This document shows positions 1,651-12,187 of a DNA stretch of 12,187 nt, piece after piece. The position numbers and the translations under genes were made by a program. Origin of the DNA: Candidatus Auribacterota bacterium. Its GTDB lineage: Bacteria; Auribacterota; JAFGBW01. The number at the start of each line of letters is the position of its first letter. Within the stretch, counting starts at the first letter, position 1. The stretch covers positions 1 through 12,187 of the forward strand of contig JAFGBW010000085.1 in the NCBI GenBank assembly GCA_016932965.1, read 5' to 3'. Under the pieces are notes generated by a model. The model did no database searches, was not told the DNA's origin, and saw only the letters and a program-made list of their open reading frames with translations.

Positions 1651-1820
1651 AACCACGAAAAACACCAAAAGCACGAAATTCATAATCAAAAAAACTGCAT
1701 AGGATATAAAAAAAATCTTTCCATTTTCATGTCATGGGACTTCACATCTTGCCCTTGCCTTACGGCGACTTAGTCGTCCCTCTTCACCATCAAAGATTTC
1801 AAGGCGTGCATTTCGTGGTT
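1651..1820. repeat. 170-bp MITE-like element with inverted ends carrying TTTCGTG repeat units
   Basis: The left end AACCACGAAA (1651-1660) is the exact reverse complement of the right end TTTCGTGGTT (1811-1820), and similarity extends a few bases further in. Read on the minus strand, the left end (1680 to 1651) is three 9-nt units of TTTTCGTGN type ending in GGTT. The right end has about two units. The interior is non-coding and contains a small palindrome CGACTTAGTCG (1766-1776). CTTTTAT occurs on both sides (1639-1645 and 1827-1833) but not flush with the ends, so it is weak as a target-site duplication. It is probably a non-autonomous repeat or a pair of dispersed repeats in opposite orientation. 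No transposase is seen. Confidence 0.5.
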
Positions 1821-2066: not shown

Positions 2067-3167
2067 TTAAGCCCCTCGCCCTACTTGGGATTGTCCGGCC
2101 AGATTTCCATTGGTACTTATCTGAACCCCCCAGGATATATACTCCAAAAGAGTAGGATAAACTACCAGACTTTTTCCAGTTCTGACATCGGTGGAAGCCA
2201 TTTTCCATCGCATCGGTTCCAAAATATAAGGCAAATGACTTTCTGAATGAAACTGATCTATCTCATTTTTACTTAAAGAAAACTCATTTCCTGAAGTATT
2301 AGGACGATTAAAAACATGTAAACCAACCTGAAGAGAAGCTCCTGATACTTCCTCACTGAAGTATCGCTCTCGCAACATGTGCATCCGTTTTTGTCCAATA
2401 TCTCCCCCATGTCTTTTCAATGCATCCGAACCCATTACTTGTATCCAACGATACGCTTTTCGGTATCGTTTCATTAATAAACCCAAAAAATCAGGAAATT
2501 GCCTATTTTCTCCCAAATCACTAAACCGAATCAATCCCACTTTTTCGAATGGCTGAATAAGTAATTTCACCATCATTCTTCTTCGCCTATAATTAGACAT
2601 CTTGCTTTTTTCTCCATCAGGTGTTAGACCAATAACAAGAAAATCCTCATCCGTATTATCACTTGCTAAATGAGCCAGCCATATCAATTCATGAGCAAGA
2701 GTCGGAAAATCATAAGCTCCAGAAACGATGCCCAGTGAAGTGGGGGTTCTATTCCAAGGTTTTAACTTCCCTGCAATGACTTTCCTCCTAATTTTTTCTA
2801 ATAAATCAAGAATAACTCGTTCATATGATAAAATTTCCTCTTTGGCTTTTCGTGGTAAAAAATCATATTCAGTTTGTCTAAATATCCGATAGTCTTCTTT
2901 AATTTTTTTAACCACAATTTTGTCGTACCGTTTTAACCATGCATCTATTATCCTCTTATCTTCCTTTGGAATTGATCGTTCCGGAAACCAGTCATCAGAT
3001 ACAATCTCTTCTTCAGGGATGTAATCCTTTATATTTGTCTGAGGGGCCAGACAGGCGCAGGGAACGGAAATCCGCGTTGTAAGGGAATCCGCATAAGTAT
3101 TCTGTCTATAGTCTAATAATAGCAGAAAGCAAAATAACAGCATGCCTGTAATATTACGTTTGATCAT
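2067..3167 (-). CDS. Exported NadD/NMNAT-like nucleotidyltransferase-fold protein
   Basis: 366 aa. The start at 3167 has AGGAAAG about 5 nt upstream and opens a signal peptide: MIKRN, a hydrophobic core at residues 6-18, and a likely cut after TYA (residue 26). Residues 50-140 are charged and helix-rich. Residues 145-345 match the HIGH-superfamily adenylyltransferase pattern. SGAYDFPTLAHELI (149-162) corresponds to the G-x-F-D/N-x-x-[HT]-x-x-H motif of NadD/NMNAT. VMGSDAL (244-250) corresponds to the GSD segment. MASTDVR (323-329) followed by YPTLLEYI (337-344) corresponds to ISSTxxR and the C-terminal PxxVxxYI. Family members transfer AMP from ATP to NMN or NaMN in the cytoplasm, so a signal peptide is unexpected. 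The next in-frame Met after the leader is far inside the domain start region (M190), so a cytoplasmic restart would lose motif 1. The gene is more AT-rich than its neighbours and runs against them, suggesting acquisition by transfer. Substrate and activity are unknown. Confidence 0.7.
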   Translation of the reverse strand: MIKRNITGMLLFCFLLLLDYRQNTYADSLTTRISVPCACLAPQTNIKDYIPEEEIVSDDWFPERSIPKEDKRIIDAWLKRYDKIVVKKIKEDYRIFRQTEYDFLPRKAKEEILSYERVILDLLEKIRRKVIAGKLKPWNRTPTSLGIVSGAYDFPTLAHELIWLAHLASDNTDEDFLVIGLTPDGEKSKMSNYRRRRMMVKLLIQPFEKVGLIRFSDLGENRQFPDFLGLLMKRYRKAYRWIQVMGSDALKRHGGDIGQKRMHMLRERYFSEEVSGASLQVGLHVFNRPNTSGNEFSLSKNEIDQFHSESHLPYILEPMRWKMASTDVRTGKSLVVYPTLLEYISWGVQISTNGNLAGQSQVGRGA

Positions 3168-3301
3168 AATCTTTCCTATTAACTGTTAATTTGCTTACCT
3201 GTTCCATGATTATTTGTCAAGATAGCACATTAAAATTCATTTCAACCTGGGTTAATCATATATAAAACCTGAAGGAAACAAAAAATCCTGCTTAATATAT
3301 T

Positions 3302-3389: not shown

Positions 3390-4661
3390 ATGAAAGTATT
3401 GATCATAGGCAGCGGCGGAAGAGAACATGCCCTGGCATGGAAACTCTCCCAATCCCCTCAGGTAAAGGAGATTTACTGCGCTCCAGGAAACGGAGGCATG
3501 CGTGGGTTCTGCATTCCGGTTTGTGTTGATGTAAAAGACTTAAAATCCCTGGCAGTCTTTGCCCAAAAAAAACAAATAGATCTCACGGTGGTCGGACCTG
3601 AAGACCCTTTGGTTGAAGGGATATCGGACATCTTCAAAGCCAAAGGACTCCTCATATACGGCCCTTCAAAAAATGCCGCCATGCTGGAAGGATCAAAGGA
3701 TTTTACCCGGCAGATCTGCTCACGCTCAGGAATCAAGATCGCCGAAGGCAGAACATTCACTGTGATCTCCCAGGCGCTGGCTTATCTGGATAAACAATCC
3801 TATCCGGTTGTCATCAAGGCAGACGGCCTGGCCGCAGGCAAGGGCGTCACCATAGCACAAAATCATGCCCAAGCCGTGGCCGCTGTCAAAGATGCCATGG
3901 AGCAAAAAATCTTCGGAAACGCCGGAAATAAAATCGTCATCGAGGAATTTCTGAAAGGATATGAAGTATCCGTTCTTTCGATTTGCTCCGGAACGGATGC
4001 CGTTGTTCTGGCCCCCTCTCAAGACCATAAACGCATTTTTGATCATGACAAAGGGCCTAACACCGGAGGCATGGGAACATTTTCGCCTGTTCCGGCCTTT
4101 TCTCCTCAACAACTCCAATGGACAAAGGATCACATTTTTGTGCCGGTTTTAAAAACCATGCTCAATCAGGGCATGCCTTATATCGGAACCCTGTTTGCCG
4201 GACTGATGGTTCTGGAAGACCACGATATCCGTGTTCTGGAATTCAACGTCCGCTTCGGGGACCCGGAAACCCAGGCCATACTTCCAAGGTTTCAGGGGGA
4301 TTTTTTTGAGATGTTATACAGGGCCTCCAAAGGAGAACCTCTTACGGATATCTCCTTAAAATGGGCTGAAGAATCCTGCGTCTGTGTGGTGGCCGCCTCT
4401 TCCGGATACCCCGGCTCCTATAAAAAAGGATTTGAAATAAAGGGTCTCGACCAGCCACTGGAAAAAGACTGCACAGTTTTTCACGCGGGAACAGAAAAAA
4501 AACAGGACCGTTTATTCACGAGCGGAGGCAGGGTGCTCTCGGTTGCTTCTCTGGGGAAAGACCTGAAAGAAGCCAAGGAGAAAAGCTATCGCGCATTGAA
4601 ACAGATTCATTTTGATGGAATGTATTACCGTACAGACATCAGCGACAAGGCGGGTATCTGA
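3390..4661 (+). CDS. purD: Phosphoribosylamine-glycine ligase (GAR synthetase)
   Basis: 423 aa, close to the usual 420-430. It catalyses ATP-dependent joining of glycine to 5-phosphoribosylamine, the second step of de novo purine synthesis, in the cytoplasm. Visible hallmarks are the N-terminal GSGGREHALAWKL (residues 7-19), APGNGG (31-36), VVGPEDPL (67-74), and the ATP-grasp KADGLAAGKGV (143-153) with EEFLKGYEVSVLS (185-197). They continue with QDHKR and GPNTGGMG (211-229), LEFNVRFGDPETQ (283-295) carrying metal/ATP ligands, and the terminal FDGMYYRTDI. The Shine-Dalgarno sequence is modest: TAGG lies about 11 nt upstream, while the GAGG abutting the ATG is too close. It is the first gene of the housekeeping run and is preceded by a repeat copy and an AT-rich inverted repeat. 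Glycine for this reaction would come from GlyA encoded downstream. Confidence 0.97.
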   Translation: MKVLIIGSGGREHALAWKLSQSPQVKEIYCAPGNGGMRGFCIPVCVDVKDLKSLAVFAQKKQIDLTVVGPEDPLVEGISDIFKAKGLLIYGPSKNAAMLEGSKDFTRQICSRSGIKIAEGRTFTVISQALAYLDKQSYPVVIKADGLAAGKGVTIAQNHAQAVAAVKDAMEQKIFGNAGNKIVIEEFLKGYEVSVLSICSGTDAVVLAPSQDHKRIFDHDKGPNTGGMGTFSPVPAFSPQQLQWTKDHIFVPVLKTMLNQGMPYIGTLFAGLMVLEDHDIRVLEFNVRFGDPETQAILPRFQGDFFEMLYRASKGEPLTDISLKWAEESCVCVVAASSGYPGSYKKGFEIKGLDQPLEKDCTVFHAGTEKKQDRLFTSGGRVLSVASLGKDLKEAKEKSYRALKQIHFDGMYYRTDISDKAGI

Positions 4662-4700
4662 TAAATATAGATTGAAAAACATCTTATTCCCCCATTGACT

Positions 4701-4737
4701 TTTTTCGTGTATTCGGAGTGTTTCGTTGTTAATAATA
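4701..4737 (+). repeat. Copy of the TTTTCGTGN repeat between purD and purE
   Basis: Three roughly 9-nt units (TTTTCGTGT, ATTCGGAGTG, TTTCGTTG) are followed by TTAATAATA. The blocks TTTTTTCGTG (4700-4709) and GTTAATAATA (4728-4737) are identical to those before purD, with 18 instead of 19 nt between them. The element starts 84 nt before the purE ATG, compared with 89 nt before purD. Confidence 0.5.
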
Positions 4738-4783
4738 GTGGACTTAATTTTATCAACCCTTCTTTCACAGGAGAGAATAAATC

Positions 4784-5287
4784 ATGAGCCAGAAATACCA
4801 AGCTCAAGTCGCCATAATCATGGGGTCTAAAACGGACTGGGAAATCATGAAAGCCGCCTCAGAGGCCCTAAAGGAGTTCCGGATCCGACATGAAGTCAAA
4901 GTCCTTTCAGCTCACAGAGCCCCTTCCAAACTGATAGAATATGTAAACGCGTCAGCGGAAAAAGGAGTTTCCGTCTTCCTTTGCGGAGCAGGCGGAGCCG
5001 CACACCTCGCTGGCGTGGTTGCCGCACATACCATATTACCAGTCATCGGTGTTCCGGTTTCATCTGGTGCCTTAAAAGGAATGGACGCCCTCTTATCCAC
5101 GGTGCAAATGCCCAAAGGAATTCCTGTTGCTACCGTGGCTGTTGACGGAGCCTATAATGCCGCTGTTCTGGCTGTTGAAATCCTGGCAGTTCATCAGCAG
5201 AAACTCAAAATAAAATTAAGAACGTATAAAAAAGAAATGGAAAAAAAGGTGCTCGCTTCTTCTGATTCACTGCAGAGTCATCATTAA
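4784..5287 (+). CDS. purE: N5-carboxyaminoimidazole ribonucleotide mutase (PurE)
   Basis: 167 aa, against about 160-170 for class I PurE. It rearranges N5-CAIR to CAIR in purine synthesis. The start is well supported by AGGAGAG (4769-4775) 8 nt upstream. Hallmarks are [12 protein letters not shown] (11-22; usually GSxSD, so the Ser is Thr here), LSAHRAP (41-47), [16 protein letters not shown] (68-83) containing the conserved His, PVIGVPV (86-92), and [16 protein letters not shown] (103-118). The tail after residue 137 is charged and variable. A purK partner is not in the window. If it is absent from the genome, this enzyme would have to act as the CO2-using type. It is 18 bp from the next gene, so they are likely co-transcribed. 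Confidence 0.95.
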
Positions 5288-5305
5288 CCGGAAAAATGAG
5301 GAACA

Positions 5306-5932
5306 ATGATCAACACCGATAATATGCCTCCTGAAGTGATCAGTAAAATCATCGCCATTGATCCGTTTTATCCTGAGCCTTCACTGGTTTCCATGGCAGG
5401 CCAATATTTAAGAGCCGGGAAAAAAGTCATTTTTCCGACTGAAACTGTTTACGGTCTGGGTGTCAATGCGGAAAATGAACCCTCTATATTGGAAGTATAC
5501 GATATAAAAAAACGTCCAAGAGATAAGCCGTTCAGTTACCATTTCGCCTCTCTGGATGAATACTTCCGTTTTTCCGGAAATGGTTGTGATGCGGACGCCA
5601 GGGAGTGGTTCCATAAATTGATCCCCCATCCGGTCACCCTGATCTATTACGATAATGTCCGGAAAATCAAAATAGGCGTGCGCATACCGGATCATCCGGT
5701 CGCAAAAGCCATTTTAAAGGAGGCCGGATGTCCGGTACTGGCTCCGAGCGCGAATTTTTCAGGAGACCCCCCTCCTGTCAGCATTGATGAGATCAATCCG
5801 TTGCTGGCACAAAGGATGGATCTCATCGTGGATTCCGGCAAAACGGACAATTTAAAGGAATCAACTGTGATTGACATTTCAGTGAATCCAGTTAAAGTTC
5901 TACGTCAGGGAGCCTATATTTTTAATGGATAA
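5306..5932 (+). CDS. tsaC: Threonylcarbamoyl-AMP synthase, TsaC/YrdC type
   Basis: 208 aa, the short TsaC form lacking the Sua5 C-terminal domain. It makes L-threonylcarbamoyl-AMP from threonine, bicarbonate and ATP for t6A modification of ANN-decoding tRNAs. Visible motifs are FPTETVYGLG (43-52), the KKRPRDKP basic loop (68-75), VRIPDHP (125-131), APSANFSG (146-153) and STVIDI (186-191). The usual PGPxT turn reads IPHPVT (106-111), a small departure. GAGGA lies only 3 nt before the ATG at 5306, which is tight. The next Met (residue 7) has no better site, so the first is kept. It sits 18 bp after purE. The N-terminal 25 residues precede the core domain and are not obviously conserved. Confidence 0.92.
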   Translation: MINTDNMPPEVISKIIAIDPFYPEPSLVSMAGQYLRAGKKVIFPTETVYGLGVNAENEPSILEVYDIKKRPRDKPFSYHFASLDEYFRFSGNGCDADAREWFHKLIPHPVTLIYYDNVRKIKIGVRIPDHPVAKAILKEAGCPVLAPSANFSGDPPPVSIDEINPLLAQRMDLIVDSGKTDNLKESTVIDISVNPVKVLRQGAYIFNG

Positions 5933-6001
5933 TGGGATAGAGCCGTATCGTCTTCTCATGATGCCATGCAACAGATAAAAAAATGCAATAAAACATAAAG
6001 A

Positions 6002-6463
6002 ATGATGAATGCTAAAATGAAAACCATCCTCTTTGTCTGCACCGGAAATACCTGCCGTTCACCCATGGCTCAATGTTATTTTGATCATCTGACACGGGGA
6101 AAAAATATCCGTACTTTCTCCGCAGGCACGGCCTCTCTCAATGGATTCCCCGCTTCATCTTTAGCCTCTCGCATCATGGCACGGTATCAACTGGATCTGA
6201 GTTCTCATAAAACCAGAAAAGTTGAAAAAGAACTATTGGATCAGTCGGACATGATCATCGTCATGACAGAATTCCATCGCGATTATCTGCTCCGCGAATG
6301 GCCTGAAACGGGAAATAAAATTTTTTTACTGAGGGAATTCGACAAAAATCCTCTTCAGGGAAGAATGGACATCGATGATCCGATGGGAGGGAGTGAGGAC
6401 TTTTACCAGCAGGTTTTTGATCTGATGAAAGAACCGCTGGAACGGCTGAGTGAGATGGTATAA
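6002..6463 (+). CDS. Low-molecular-weight phosphatase, YwlE-like (putative protein-arginine phosphatase)
   Basis: 153 aa, typical for the LMW-PTP fold. The P-loop is CTGNTCRSPMAQ (residues 13-24), giving the CX5R nucleophile Cys13 and Arg19. The catalytic acid loop is DDPMGG (125-130), with Asp126 as general acid. The Thr in the loop (residue 17) matches the Thr that marks Bacillus YwlE-type arginine phosphatases, where LMW tyrosine phosphatases have Ile/Leu. DPMGGSEDFYQQV also aligns well with YwlE. Arginine-phosphate specificity is inferred from that residue; no McsB-like kinase gene is in the window. Starts at Met1, Met2 (6005) or Met6 (6017, just before the conserved KTILFVCTG) are all possible, and none has a strong Shine-Dalgarno sequence. 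The tsaC / phosphatase / rpiB / glyA order is widely conserved. Confidence 0.9.
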   Translation: MMNAKMKTILFVCTGNTCRSPMAQCYFDHLTRGKNIRTFSAGTASLNGFPASSLASRIMARYQLDLSSHKTRKVEKELLDQSDMIIVMTEFHRDYLLREWPETGNKIFLLREFDKNPLQGRMDIDDPMGGSEDFYQQVFDLMKEPLERLSEMV

Positions 6464-6489
6464 ATAAAATTGAGAATTGAAATTAATAA

Positions 6490-6960
6490 ATGAATACCCC
6501 CGATAAATCTGCCGACTCCTTTTCACAAGAATCCAGATCAGTTGTTATAGGATCGGATCATGGTGGTTTCGATCTGAAGGAACACATCAAAATCCATCTT
6601 CAAAACGAAGGTTACATGATTGATGACAAAGGCTGCTTTTCATCCGAATCCTGTGATTATCCTGATTTCGGATACCAGGTGGCCCAATCTGTGGGTGAAA
6701 GACACCATGACAAAGGCATATTGATATGCAAATCCGGGATCGGCATGTCGATTGTGGCCAACAAGGTAAAAAATGTCAGGGCAGCTCTCTGCTATAATCA
6801 GGAAGCGGCAAGACTCTCAAGAGCCCATAATGACGCAAACATATTAGTCATGGGAAGCCATTTTGTTTCCCCCGCCGATGCTGTGGCAATCATACGGACG
6901 TTTTTTGAAACACCGTTTGAAGGAGGACGTCACTGCCGGCGCGTTGAAAAAATTGCATAA
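6490..6960 (+). CDS. rpiB: Ribose-5-phosphate isomerase B
   Basis: 156 aa. It interconverts ribulose-5-phosphate and ribose-5-phosphate, feeding PRPP and nucleotide synthesis. Motifs are VVIGSDHGGFDLKEHI (18-33), SCDYPDFG (54-61), GILICKSGIGMSIVANK (76-92) with active-site Cys80, VRAALCYN and NDANILVMGS. The loop that is commonly CGTGIG reads CKSGIG, placing Lys81 beside the catalytic Cys in the phosphate-binding loop. About 16 residues precede the first strand, so the N-terminus is slightly extended. The Shine-Dalgarno sequence is weak (TTGAGAATTGAA upstream). It lies 26 bp after the phosphatase gene, consistent with one operon. Confidence 0.95.
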   Translation: MNTPDKSADSFSQESRSVVIGSDHGGFDLKEHIKIHLQNEGYMIDDKGCFSSESCDYPDFGYQVAQSVGERHHDKGILICKSGIGMSIVANKVKNVRAALCYNQEAARLSRAHNDANILVMGSHFVSPADAVAIIRTFFETPFEGGRHCRRVEKIA

Positions 6961-7074
6961 GGAAAAAACACTTCACAACTCATGATAATTTCAAACTTTC
7001 TAAAAAATTAGCATGTCCGGTTAGGTTTTATATTTATTTTAATATGAATTTTTTACTAGGAGATTGAATTCAAG

Positions 7075-8337
7075 ATGAGCTACTTATCCAAAATAGATCC
7101 AGAGATTTTTAAAGCCGTCAACAGGGAAATCATCCGCCAGGAAACCTCCATTGAACTGATCGCCTCTGAAAATTTCACATCCATGGCAGTCATGGAGGCC
7201 CAAGGTTCAGTCCTGACGAACAAATACGCCGAGGGCTATCCGGCCAAAAGATGGTACAATGGATGCGAATTCATCGATCAGACTGAGCAACTGGCCATTG
7301 ACCGCGCCATCAAACTTTTCAGAAGTGAAGGCGCCAATGTTCAACCCCATTCAGGCTCCTCCGCCAACATGGCTGTTTACTTTGCCCTTTTAAATCCCGG
7401 AGACACCGTACTGGCCATGAGCCTGGACCATGGAGGACATTTGACGCACGGCCTGCAGCAGAATTTTTCGGGCCGTTTTTTTCATTTTGTCGCCTACGGT
7501 GTCTCACCCGAGGACGAAAAAATAGATTACGACATGATGGAAAAACTCGCGCTGGAACATAAACCCAAAATGATCACGGCCGGGGCATCCGCCTATCCGA
7601 GGATCATTGAATTTGAAAGAATCCGCAGGATTGCCGACAAGGTTGGCGCGCTCGTCATGGTGGACATGGCTCACATTGCCGGACTCGTGGCGGCCGGACT
7701 GCACCCATCTCCGGTTCCTCACTCTGACATCGTTACCACGACCACGCACAAAACTTTACGCGGACCCAGGGGCGGGCTCATTCTCTTCAGAAACCAGTAC
7801 GAGAAAGCCATCAATAAGCAGATTTTTCCGGGAATCCAGGGAGGACCTCTCGAACATGTCATTGCAGCCAAAGCCGTGGCCCTGAAAGAAGCCTCAGAGC
7901 CCTCTTTTAAAAATTACCAGACACAGGTAGTTAAAAATGCAAAGGCCCTTGCTTCGAAGCTGGCTTCATTGGGTTTGAGAATTGTGTCGGGCGGCACGGA
8001 CAATCATCTTCTCCTGGTGGATGTTTCTGCTTTGAATCTGACAGGAAAAGAGGTGGCCAATAATCTGCATTCAGCCCGAATCACGGTGAATAAAAATTTG
8101 ATCCCTTTTGACAAGCAAAGCCCGACCGTGACCTCCGGTATCCGTTTAGGAACCGCTGCGGTGACCACCAGGGGAATGAAAGAAAATGAAATTGAGAAAA
8201 TCGCTGTCTGGATCCACCAAATCTGTACTCAAATGGGGGATACCAAAGTGATTGAATCCGTCGGCAAGGAAGTGGCGAACCTGTGCAGACAGTTTCCGCT
8301 GTATCCAGATTTATATGAACAGTCGATAAAAGTATAA
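7075..8337 (+). CDS. glyA: Serine hydroxymethyltransferase
   Basis: 420 aa, normal family length. It is a cytoplasmic PLP enzyme converting serine and tetrahydrofolate to glycine and 5,10-methylene-THF. AGGAG (7058-7062) lies 12 nt before the ATG. Motifs are [12 protein letters not shown] (25-36), [18 protein letters not shown] (48-65), [17 protein letters not shown] (91-107), [23 protein letters not shown], and the PLP-lysine segment [14 protein letters not shown] with Lys226. HSGSSAN carries Ser where most family members have Gln (HSGSQAN). It is 114 bp after rpiB, the largest gap in this part of the cluster, so a separate promoter is possible, although I see no convincing -35/-10 pair. Its product glycine is a substrate of PurD encoded upstream. 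Confidence 0.98.
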
Positions 8338-8396
8338 TTCAAGATTAAAATCAAATTCGCCGATATGGATTACTTTAGGAAGGAATCGACAAACTC

Positions 8397-8849
8397 ATGA
8401 AATGTCCATTTTGCGCATGTCTTGAAGACAAAGTCATTGATTCCCGTGCCTCAACGGACGGGGCAAGCATCAGAAGACGCCGGGAATGCTTGAGATGCGA
8501 AAAAAGATTCACTACTTTCGAACAGATCGAAGAAGTGCCGATCATGATCATCAAGAAAAACGGCGCCCGGGAATCCTTTTCCATAAAAAAAATAAGAGAG
8601 GGCGTGATTAAAGCCTGTGAAAAAAGGCCGGTCAGCCTTGACCAGATAGACGCTCTGGTTTGTTTCGTGAATGAATCCGTGGAAAAAATGCAGGTGCGAG
8701 AAGTGGAGAGTCAGGTTATCGGCGAACTGGTCATGAAACAGCTCCAGGGACTGGATGAAGTGGCCTATGTCCGTTTTGCTTCCGTCTATCGCCAGTTCAA
8801 AGATGTCTCGCAATTCATGCGGGAATTGTCATCACTTTTAAAAAAATAA
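8397..8849 (+). CDS. nrdR: Transcriptional repressor NrdR
   Basis: 150 aa, the usual length. It is a nucleotide-sensing repressor of ribonucleotide reductase genes. The N-terminal zinc ribbon has Cys3, Cys6, Cys31 and Cys34 (MKCPFC ... CLRC) and the conserved VIDSR and IRRRRECLRC segments. The ATP-cone follows at residues 49-139 (PIMIIKKNGARESF, KIREGVIKACEKRPVS, YVRFASVYRQFKDVSQF). AGGAAGGA about 11 nt upstream supports the start. It is 59 bp after glyA. No NrdR-box pair was noticed in this window, so its targets lie elsewhere. Confidence 0.97.
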   Translation: MKCPFCACLEDKVIDSRASTDGASIRRRRECLRCEKRFTTFEQIEEVPIMIIKKNGARESFSIKKIREGVIKACEKRPVSLDQIDALVCFVNESVEKMQVREVESQVIGELVMKQLQGLDEVAYVRFASVYRQFKDVSQFMRELSSLLKK

Positions 8850-8856
8850 TAAACAA

Positions 8857-9870
8857 ATGATATCCCTCCCGCAGAGGCGCGGAGGCGGCGCAGAGAAAAA
8901 AATAGCCAGGCGGCGCAAACAGCTCAACAGATTCATGATGGTTGATCAAGCCATGAAAAACTTGTCCACTCCCTTTTATTCAAGTGAAGAATTAAAAGGC
9001 CCCCTCAGCTTCTGCGAGGGGCCGGATTCCGGTTTTTTTATCACAGACGAAATCGGCCATCAGATTGTCAGGATCGATCCAGATGGAAAACTCCTCTGGA
9101 AAACAGGTGAATTCGGAAACAAAAACGGCCAGTTTCATTATCCGACCGACTGTGCATGGGATGGAGAACGCCTTTATATCACGGACCGCTATAATCACCG
9201 CATCGTCTGTCTGGATGAGCAGGGAAAAACTATTTTCAGTTTCGGAAAACACGGAAAATCAAATGCCGAATTCAATGAGCCGTACGGCATCGCGGTGGAT
9301 CCCCACGGCCGTTTATTTATTTCGGATTCTGACAATCAAAAAATCAAGGTCTTTTCCTCAGATGGTGTTTTTCAATTCTCCTTTGGAGTCCCGGGTCCGG
9401 GTCAGGAATATTATGAGTCCCGGATATTCAAGGAACAAAGTGTTTATAAAAAATGGCGTGATGATCAATCCCGCTTCCACACCATTGAAAGTCACTTTTT
9501 TACGAGTGCGTTCCCCTTAGGCAATCTCGATCATCCTAAAGGACTGGCATTGGAAAAGGACCTCGTTGCTGTTGCTGATTACGGAGGAAGAGTCCAGATT
9601 TTTGATCTGACCGGGAATTGCAGGCATTCCCATTATCAAAAACAGGCTGAAGCAGTATCGTTGTTCTCTTTCTGCCAGTGGACCGCTTTTTTCATGGGAG
9701 AAATCTATTTTACGACGGAATTGTCCCCTGCTATCTTGAAAATATCCTCCGATGACCCGGAACTCTTTTTTGAATCCGAACATGAAATCGGAAAGTTTCT
9801 CTTCAGAAAAGACGGAACTATTTTCCATCTCTCCCCTTTTGAAAAAACGATTTTTCAAGTCAGCATTTAA
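8857..9870 (+). CDS. NHL-repeat beta-propeller protein, start uncertain
   Basis: 337 aa from the longest start. At least three NHL-type blades are visible. GFFITDEIGHQIVRIDPDGK (59-78) forms one. RLYITDRYNHRIVCLDEQGK (105-124) forms the next, with the linker FSFGKHGKSNAEFNEPYGIA. RLFISDSDNQKIKVFSSDGV (152-171) is the third. A fourth, HPKGLALEKDLVAVADYGGR with VQIFDLTG, follows a roughly 45-residue insert. NHL propellers bind proteins, peptides or RNA; the ligand is unknown. There is no signal peptide, so it appears cytoplasmic, unlike many bacterial NHL proteins. No Shine-Dalgarno sequence precedes 8857, and residues 5-25 are encoded by a dispersed CGCAGAGG repeat. The native start may instead be 8935, 8938 or 8953, just before the domain, although none of these has a clear ribosome site either. 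It lies 7 bp after nrdR. Confidence 0.8.
   Translation: MISLPQRRGGGAEKKIARRRKQLNRFMMVDQAMKNLSTPFYSSEELKGPLSFCEGPDSGFFITDEIGHQIVRIDPDGKLLWKTGEFGNKNGQFHYPTDCAWDGERLYITDRYNHRIVCLDEQGKTIFSFGKHGKSNAEFNEPYGIAVDPHGRLFISDSDNQKIKVFSSDGVFQFSFGVPGPGQEYYESRIFKEQSVYKKWRDDQSRFHTIESHFFTSAFPLGNLDHPKGLALEKDLVAVADYGGRVQIFDLTGNCRHSHYQKQAEAVSLFSFCQWTAFFMGEIYFTTELSPAILKISSDDPELFFESEHEIGKFLFRKDGTIFHLSPFEKTIFQVSI
8870..8898 (+). repeat. CGCAGAGG-unit dispersed repeat at the 5' end of the NHL gene
   Basis: The units CGCAGAGG (8870-8877), CGCGGAGG (8878-8885) and CGGCGCAGAG (8886-8895) run in tandem and end in an A-run. It is much more GC-rich than its surroundings and has no link to the nrdR or NHL reading frames. 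Arrays of this type recur in many environmental bacterial genomes (from memory; a self-BLAST would confirm). Read in frame, it gives the low-complexity QRRGGGAEKK. Confidence 0.55.
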
Positions 9871-9905
9871 TGCTTATCATCGATTCAATTCAAGCCATTC
9901 CTCTA

Positions 9906-9935
9906 TTGCATAACCCTATAAATATTTGCTATAAT
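9906..9935 (+). promoter_or_regulatory. Extended -10 promoter for the large exported protein
   Basis: TGCTATAAT (9927-9935) is a perfect extended -10 element (TGnTATAAT). TTGCAT (9906-9911), 18 bp upstream, gives a weak -35 (TTG only), which extended -10 promoters tolerate. The usual start site 7 nt after the -10 falls at 9942, the A of the ATG, so the mRNA is predicted to be leaderless. Confidence 0.65.
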
Positions 9936-9941
9936 CAAATC

Positions 9942-12187
9942 ATGAAAACGGCATCTATTTCCATGCTGCTTCTTTCCCTGTTTTTTCTCACTTCGGAAAC
10001 ACAGGGGGCACATGGTCCCCCATCCAATGAGACTGAGTTTGCCCTTGTTAATCCAGGACCTGATCCCATCATCCAGGGGGACCCGTATGGCACCCTTTCT
10101 TTTACGGTTGACCGAACATCCGGGAATAACCGCATCAACAAGGTTAGATTTACTTTTCCATCTGCCTTATATGAAGTCAGCGCCGCCACCCAGGGCCCCC
10201 AAGACTGGATAGTTACCCTGGGTCCTGCATTAACTCCTCCCTTGGAAAAAAACGTCGTGGAATTTTATTGTCCTGTTTCAGGTTCACAGATTTCCAATAA
10301 GACATTAAGATTCAGCATGATTGTCACGGGTATCAACGGGGGCACCATCCCCAACGCCGCTGCTGACGACAACAGCCATTATCTATCCAGCGTGGAAGCC
10401 TGGGATGATGATGGAGATTCCTGTCCCTACGACGGCGCCCCTGTTTCCTCTTTTCCCTGGTTACGGCAGGGGCTCTTCACCCAGTTGAACATTGTTCCAG
10501 ACACCATGCCGCTGGAGGCGGAGGCCACTTTTTATCTGAGCGTACAGAACCGGACAACAGCCCAGCAAACAGTCACGCCCATTACCCCGACACGCCTTGT
10601 CGATGGAAGACGAGTCGGGGAATTGACTTACGTTTCCGGCCCTGTCCCTTCAAATCAGACTTTTCTTTCAGGGGAGACAAAAGAATTCGTATATAAATAC
10701 CGGGCTACCCGGCTGCGTTCAACCCGCTATGTCTCAGGAGGAACCGGCTCAGGTGTTACTTCCAATGAATGCATTTCCAATGAAGTGGTGATCGGCGATG
10801 TGGGAGGACAGATGGTTGTGCCTTTGACTGCGGCAAACAACGAAGCCATCACACTGGCATTCCATGTTACAAACAATACAGACCATCCTTTGACCAATTT
10901 AAGGCCAATGGGGATTTCCTGGAGTGGCAAAAACGGCTTGAATAAACCGGTTCTGATTGACGGCCCCACCCCGCCTGGCCCTGTGCCATCTTTGGCGCCG
11001 GATTCGGAAATAGTGTTTTACTGGGTTTACCGGGTGTCCGGAGACCCGGGCGCTCAATATCTCTTTTCCGGACGGGTCCTGTCTGACCAGGAGGATACGG
11101 TAAGGGATCAGTCTGACTGGGGAACCATAGAAGTTTTTTCCGTGAGACTCGATCCTTTGATTGTCAGTTGTGGCGACACCGAGGTTCAATTCAATTTCTG
11201 GATTCAAAACGGAGGTTCCACGTCAGATTATATCAATCAGGTGACCATCATGCATCCGGATGCCAATTTTCAGCAATCACCACCGTATTTTATAGGCGCT
11301 TCAGGAGGGAACGCGAGTTCTTGGGACCCTTCTCCCACACCGGATGGTAAAGGTATTATTTTCACCCCCACATCAACAGGCGATGTCTTATATGGAACAA
11401 AAGGCATGACCCTTTCCATGAAATACAATATTCCGGATAAAACCATCTATCCCAATGAAACCCTGTTGACCTTTCCCGTGATATTGGAAGGCAGGGTTTC
11501 AGGTTCTTCTTATACAACCAACAAGCTTCCGTCATTCCGCATCATCAACTACTCCCTGGAAGTGCAGATGGTTCCTCCGCCGCCGACTTCCCCGCCGTAC
11601 TTATCCGCAGACGGATCCACCCAGCTCATGGTGAATGCCCGCCTGATGCAAAATGACGTTCCTGTTGCCAATGATGAAATCGATTTTACTGCTGAATATG
11701 ACAAGTACGCCAATCTCTTAATCCCTCCAAATATCACTCCGATTTCTTCCGTGACCGACCTGACCGGCCACGCCTTTTCCACTTTCACGGCTCCCAGATA
11801 CGAGCAGCAATCCCCTTCTGAAATCAGCGTGAACGTCGTTGCCTATTTTCCAAGAAAAAATATGACAGCCCGGTACGATCACATACGATTTACATACTGT
11901 GATAAACCTTCTTTTAAAGTTAAACTGCTCGAAGTCAAACAAAGAAAACATGTATACGAACCTGTATCGGAAGTGGAGTTGATTCCGGGTTCTGTCAGTA
12001 CTGTTCAGTTCCGGGTGACAATCACTGTTTTCGGAGCATCACAGATTATAAATATCCTGCGTAATACTTCAAAAGGAGCCACGACCATTACGTTTACCGA
12101 CAAGGAAAATAACGGCCAATCGAATTATACAGCCTACTTATCGACTGACTATCATAATATCCATGGATACAATCCCCCGGCATATAA
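9942..12187 (+). CDS. Large exported protein of Ig-like modules, 3'-truncated by the window edge
   Basis: The frame is open for 748 codons from the ATG at 9942 to the window end with no stop; the TAA in the last three bases is out of frame. Residues 1-23 form a signal peptide (MKTASISMLLLSLFFL, cut near TQG/AHG). After an N-terminal beta-rich segment (about 30-145) come three similar beta-sandwich-type modules (about 181-286, 288-400 and 413-535). Modules 1 and 2 share the layout V-x-GP..., then an acidic SGE/PDSE-x-x-FxYxYR. A proline-rich linker (MVPPPPTSPP, about 543-552) follows. Next is an invasin/Big_1-like segment (about 560-640: PVANDEIDFTAEY ... TDLTGHAFSTFTAP) and a further beta-rich part. 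No cell-wall anchor, membrane segment or enzymatic motif is visible. It is likely a surface or secreted adhesin-like or structural protein. There is no Shine-Dalgarno sequence; the adjacent extended -10 predicts a leaderless transcript. Confidence 0.8.
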   Translation, partial: MKTASISMLLLSLFFLTSETQGAHGPPSNETEFALVNPGPDPIIQGDPYGTLSFTVDRTSGNNRINKVRFTFPSALYEVSAATQGPQDWIVTLGPALTPPLEKNVVEFYCPVSGSQISNKTLRFSMIVTGINGGTIPNAAADDNSHYLSSVEAWDDDGDSCPYDGAPVSSFPWLRQGLFTQLNIVPDTMPLEAEATFYLSVQNRTTAQQTVTPITPTRLVDGRRVGELTYVSGPVPSNQTFLSGETKEFVYKYRATRLRSTRYVSGGTGSGVTSNECISNEVVIGDVGGQMVVPLTAANNEAITLAFHVTNNTDHPLTNLRPMGISWSGKNGLNKPVLIDGPTPPGPVPSLAPDSEIVFYWVYRVSGDPGAQYLFSGRVLSDQEDTVRDQSDWGTIEVFSVRLDPLIVSCGDTEVQFNFWIQNGGSTSDYINQVTIMHPDANFQQSPPYFIGASGGNASSWDPSPTPDGKGIIFTPTSTGDVLYGTKGMTLSMKYNIPDKTIYPNETLLTFPVILEGRVSGSSYTTNKLPSFRIINYSLEVQMVPPPPTSPPYLSADGSTQLMVNARLMQNDVPVANDEIDFTAEYDKYANLLIPPNITPISSVTDLTGHAFSTFTAPRYEQQSPSEISVNVVAYFPRKNMTARYDHIRFTYCDKPSFKVKLLEVKQRKHVYEPVSEVELIPGSVSTVQFRVTITVFGASQIINILRNTSKGATTITFTDKENNGQSNYTAYLSTDYHNIHGYNPPAY

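Follow-up and report, generated by a model that had tools for sequence, protein, structure and literature searches.

A putatively exported, NadD-like protein encoded by an orphan gene at an operon breakpoint in an Auribacterota genome

Our data suggest that a gene within the window (i.e., the whole stretch of 12,187 nucleotides analyzed here) encodes an exported protein whose main domain is related to NadD. We favor, with a probability of roughly 0.5, the reading that the gene was acquired or evolves very fast and that its exported, NadD-derived product handles nucleotidyl groups, with a substrate that is probably other than nicotinate mononucleotide (NaMN). The protein would leave the cytoplasm by Sec and signal peptidase I would remove its leader. 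Its main domain, derived from a NadD-type nucleotidyltransferase of the HIGH superfamily, would bind a nucleotidyl group, or move it onto or off a different partner, in the periplasm or extracellularly; action in the direction of breakdown, on imported or released nucleotide, may also be possible. To our knowledge, HIGH-type nucleotidyltransferases are cytoplasmic ATP- or CTP-dependent enzymes, and a secreted member, if true, raises the question of nucleotide chemistry in the bacterial envelope. It counts against our preferred reading that ATP is normally scarce outside the cytoplasm, where an ATP-type enzyme has no obvious cosubstrate. A single orphan sequence with an inferred fold and without homologues is a lead, not a discovery.

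2067..3167, minus strand: the whole gene, an intact open reading frame of 366 codons (366 amino acids)
3171..3177, minus strand: Shine-Dalgarno-like AGGAAAG, 3 nt upstream of the ATG (AGGA to ATG, 6 nt)

We found that the longest open frame arising by chance in 2000 Markov sequences of matched composition was 238 codons, compared to 366 codons here, and the open frame of the gene is therefore not due to chance. The remaining five frames over the gene contain 18-33 stops, and the GC content at codon positions 1, 2, and 3 is 47, 37, and 31%, a pattern of coding DNA. Residues 1-150 contain just three in-frame starts: ATG1, which has a good Shine-Dalgarno sequence, ATG9, which lies inside the leader, and GTG85, which has no Shine-Dalgarno sequence. 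No start codon is found just ahead of the NadD-like domain, so that GTG85 is the sole start that would omit the leader. This inventory indicates that the leader belongs to the protein, as far as the sequence tells, and bears out the preliminary description of this DNA, which had reported a reading frame with a good Shine-Dalgarno sequence and a leader at this position.

3090..3167, minus strand: predicted Sec-type signal peptide, residues 1-26, from the sequence, its hydropathy, and the (-3,-1) rule

Signal peptidase cuts follow the (-3,-1) rule. The leader (MIKRNITGMLLFCFLLLLDYRQNTYA, followed by DS) starts with K3/R4 and contains a hydrophobic core at about residues 6-18 (12-13 residues), and the predicted cut falls after residue 26, between TYA and DS, with T at -3 and A at -1. 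Divided into its parts (MIKRN, ITGMLLFCFLLLL, and DYRQNTYA, followed by D), it reads as having the positive n-region, the hydrophobic core of 7-15 residues, and the small -3 and -1 residues by which we recognized Sec export and cleavage by signal peptidase I. We infer export through Sec, followed by cleavage by signal peptidase I. No lipobox of the form [LVI][ASTVI][GAS]C was found, and the cysteines near the leader sit in LLFC, SVPC, and CAC. Some Omnitrophota enzymes may carry similar leaders, ending in CLAPQ-like stretches.

The hydropathy of the leader peaks at 2.95 (11 residues) at residue 8, and the best 19-residue mean is 1.43, which would be low for a membrane anchor. Since K3/R4 lies ahead of the core, an uncut leader would also be expected to place the domain outside. 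The short core and the charges thus disfavor the cytoplasm-facing membrane anchor that had been offered for this leader. We consider it unlikely that the protein is a cytoplasmic NadD paralogue, whether through an unused leader, an internal start, or a leader that anchors the domain on the inner side. The family's chemistry does require cytoplasmic ATP and the start codon has no support from homologues, but the available starts, the predicted placement of the C-terminus outside, and the NadD that the genome already has all speak against it.

2130..2738, minus strand: putative NadD-like nucleotidyltransferase domain, residues 144-346, from PF01467, hhalign to a NadD profile, and colinear alignment
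2691..2720, minus strand: motif 1, GAYDFPTLAH, residues 150-159, the T/HxGH site with Gly replaced by Ala
2601..2624, minus strand: TPDGEKSK, residues 182-189, which by alignment replaces the NPPH-K/R loop of NadD (loop role, PMC1249556)
2424..2432, minus strand: GSD, residues 246-248, with D248 aligned to Asp109 of E. coli NadD
2181..2195, minus strand: STDVR, residues 325-329, the ISSTxxR motif
2136..2159, minus strand: YPTLLEYI, residues 337-344, with Y343-I344 aligned to Tyr205-Ile206 of E. coli NadD

These four motifs (motif 1, GSD, STDVR, and YPTLLEYI) had been described earlier and were each found at the residues given for them. The NadD-like HIGH core proposed from them gains support from motif order and from profile alignment, and the similarity to NadD is remote. 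PF01467 matches residues 148-252 (E=0.0055) with 17.3 bits, below its curated cut-off of 21, and TIGR00125 gives a sub-threshold match (E=0.052). No other library match was of the right kind; these two are weak but correctly placed, and no library profile match for the protein attains its curated cut-off. The NadD model of NCBIfam (TIGR00482) gives no match up to E=5, while it finds the true NadD of the genome at 5.7e-50.

From proteins of the same phylum we made custom profiles of NadD (28 sequences) and CoaD (23 sequences), and plain HMM searching with them did not set the protein apart from shuffles. Hhalign with the NadD profile narrowly separates the protein (28.3-28.4) from shuffles (maxima of 24.0 for n=100 and 25.9 for n=400) and from 42 unrelated open frames (180 amino acids or longer, mostly real genes), of which the best, a PurM, scores 26.3; for reference, a true NadD scores 352, CoaD 46, and RfaE2 35. 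Against the CoaD profile, the score of the protein falls inside the shuffle range. Among 300,000 shuffled versions of the protein, none had the motif set with its order and spacing, and 5 had motif 1 alone. When the sequence through motif 1 was fixed and the tail was shuffled, the strict downstream motifs occurred in 0 of 200,000 shuffles and a relaxed version in 139 of 50,000. Of the 28 NadD proteins, 18 have the ordered set, compared to none of the CoaD proteins of the sample, and the alignment with NadD is colinear over residues 145-344, through the C-terminal EYI.

These comparisons make common descent with NadD likely, although not proven. A coincidence of motifs in a protein of some unrelated, unknown family seems improbable to us: every profile match is sub-threshold, the unrelated PurM comes near the score of the protein, and the structure models are uninformative, but neither the ordered nor the strict downstream set arose among the shuffles and the top library match is the right superfamily in the right place. 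The protein resembles NadD (TIGR00482) in having GxYD-x2-T-x-A-H, G-S-D, S-T-x-x-R, and the C-terminal EYI in the same order and spacing. It differs from NadD in its signal peptide, in about 115-120 extra N-terminal residues, and in the loop PDGEK in place of PPH-K/R, with 24% identity over the hhalign match. CoaD shares the TxxH form of motif 1 but does not share the NadD-type motif set. The superfamily members encoded elsewhere in the genome (NadD, CoaD, and an RfaE2-like protein) have no leader.

Mutants of E. coli NadD place His19, Arg46, and Asp109 in the active site, R46A being the most affected of the active-site mutants; furthermore, His45 stacks on the pyridine ring, the PPH45-R/K46 loop touches the pyridine ring and phosphates, and Tyr205-Ile206 are conserved at the C-terminus (PMC1249556). 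In our alignment Asp13 and His19 are kept as D153 and H159 (T156-L-A-H159), Asp109 is kept as D248 within MGSDAL, ISSTxxR is kept as ASTDVR, and Tyr205-Ile206 are kept within EYI. The PPH45-R46 loop corresponds to PDGE-K, with D-G-E aligned and K187 one position on, although the exact pairing is uncertain. The Trp that follows GxD in the NadDs shown is absent, and this region is replaced, with about 15 additional residues. As aligned, the residues that bind and orient nucleotide phosphates and ribose are kept; the loop and pocket that recognize NaMN are lost. Since the loop and the Trp region are lost, the protein is unlikely to be a NaMN adenylyltransferase. The earlier assertion that its motifs define an NMN/NaMN adenylyltransferase is unsupported on the same grounds, and also because TIGR00482 is not matched.

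It is possible, though less likely, that the protein is exported and non-catalytic, with the NadD fold now serving an envelope protein as a structural part or as a module for nucleotide binding. The lost equivalent of H45-R46, the change of Gly to Ala in TxGH, the additional helical region, and the ATP that is not expected outside the cell would all fit such a module. However, the equivalents of D13, H19, D109, and SSTxxR are all kept, although a dead domain would have no need to retain them, K187 could substitute for R46 from one position off its column, and the same change of Gly to Ala (HLAH) is found in the ordinary NadD of another genome (L005). We give only a small chance to the protein being a catalytically active, NadD-descended nucleotidyltransferase that, in the periplasm or extracellularly, would form or cleave either a dinucleotide or an activated nucleotide, even though ATP is normally absent there.

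2748..3020, minus strand: charged helix-rich linker or domain, residues 50-140, without a family match and with helices in a low-confidence model

The preliminary description had also set apart residues 50-140 as a helix-rich stretch additional to NadD, and our data support this. Searches of the profile library gave matches at noise level only over this stretch, and those of PHROGs and PADLOC gave only noise. Single-sequence AlphaFold models of the protein had a mean pLDDT of 32 and 35, and these models are unusable because no homologues were found. A fold search with them returned no NadD among the matches listed, and one NMNAT1-containing entry reached Z 3.2 over 47 residues, a match that we disregard.

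We found no homologue in the other 43 of the 44 genomes of the phylum, nor in about 340 more bacterial genomes (384 sampled across the domain, in partly overlapping sets). A pattern scan of 85,000 genomes gave no homologue and pattern scans of viral contigs gave nothing, where such scans catch only relatives with a shared short exact pattern and remote relatives could escape. The later pattern scans used hand-made motif decoys, for searching only. Tblastn against phages and plasmids gave nothing, a PDB sequence search gave no meaningful match, and our literature searches turned up no exported protein of the NadD type. Across all of these collections there was thus no homologue to show that the leader and motifs are conserved by selection. 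Apart from the protein itself, every hit that was inspected was either an ordinary NadD (L005) or unrelated. By the reading of their sequences, the unrelated ones are a SIR2-like protein (L008), a PD-(D/E)XK-like protein (L007), two-component genes (at L010 and L012), and glycosyltransferase genes (at L014), and three more (L009, L011, and L013), scanned for motif 1 only, do not contain it.

The genome encodes an ordinary NadD, a point that the preliminary description had raised. This 196-amino-acid protein is encoded beside coaBC, with CoaD and the RfaE2-like protein encoded elsewhere, and the NadD-like gene is therefore not needed for NAD synthesis. Window positions 3390-8849 retain the conserved operon purD-purE-yrdC-ptp-rpiB-glyA-nrdR. 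Relatives share the conserved order purF-purM-purH-purD-purE-yrdC-ptp-rpiB-glyA (upstream pur genes were named by sequence reading), with one genome (G001) being partial and breaking after yrdC, and the purH-purD junction is intact in those relatives that were read upstream of purD. Here purH is detached and lies on another contig (C189, L084:2119-3708) between a 679-amino-acid gene and an unrelated gene, and the NadD-like gene lies on the opposite strand at the purH-purD breakpoint. PurD is 52-53% identical to PurD of same-order genomes, so this contig is probably a genuine part of the genome and not a contaminant.

The gene has a GC content of 38.2% and a GC3 of 31%, compared to 44-49% and 43-56% for its neighbors, in agreement with the AT-rich composition described earlier. 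Since this is an orphan gene at an operon breakpoint, it was probably acquired or diverged very fast. Acquisition, which had already been suggested, is the simplest account given the low GC3 and the lack of any relative in the phylum. The repeat-rich flanks that had been cited for it were not recovered; we found just a few imperfect pairs of 14-29 nt. The same orphan status, low GC3, and breakpoint might point to a recently acquired foreign gene in decay and without present function, but 366 stop-free codons, a Shine-Dalgarno sequence, intact motifs, and strong codon-position composition make this very improbable. Beside the gene, in intergenic DNA, short inverted copies of AACCACGAAAA lie at window positions 1651-1665 and 1806-1820, and these may be of a kind that is dispersed in several bacterial groups.

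Elsewhere in the window, positions 151-738 hold a 195-amino-acid frame without a significant family match, the first part of which may resemble the end of an HDOD domain. The small protein encoded at positions 780-1418 probably has a signal peptide and gives a single weak match to TPR (PF13174, E=8.4e-05). Positions 8857-12185 encode an NHL-repeat protein and, after it, a large protein that probably has a signal peptide and runs off the end of the contig.
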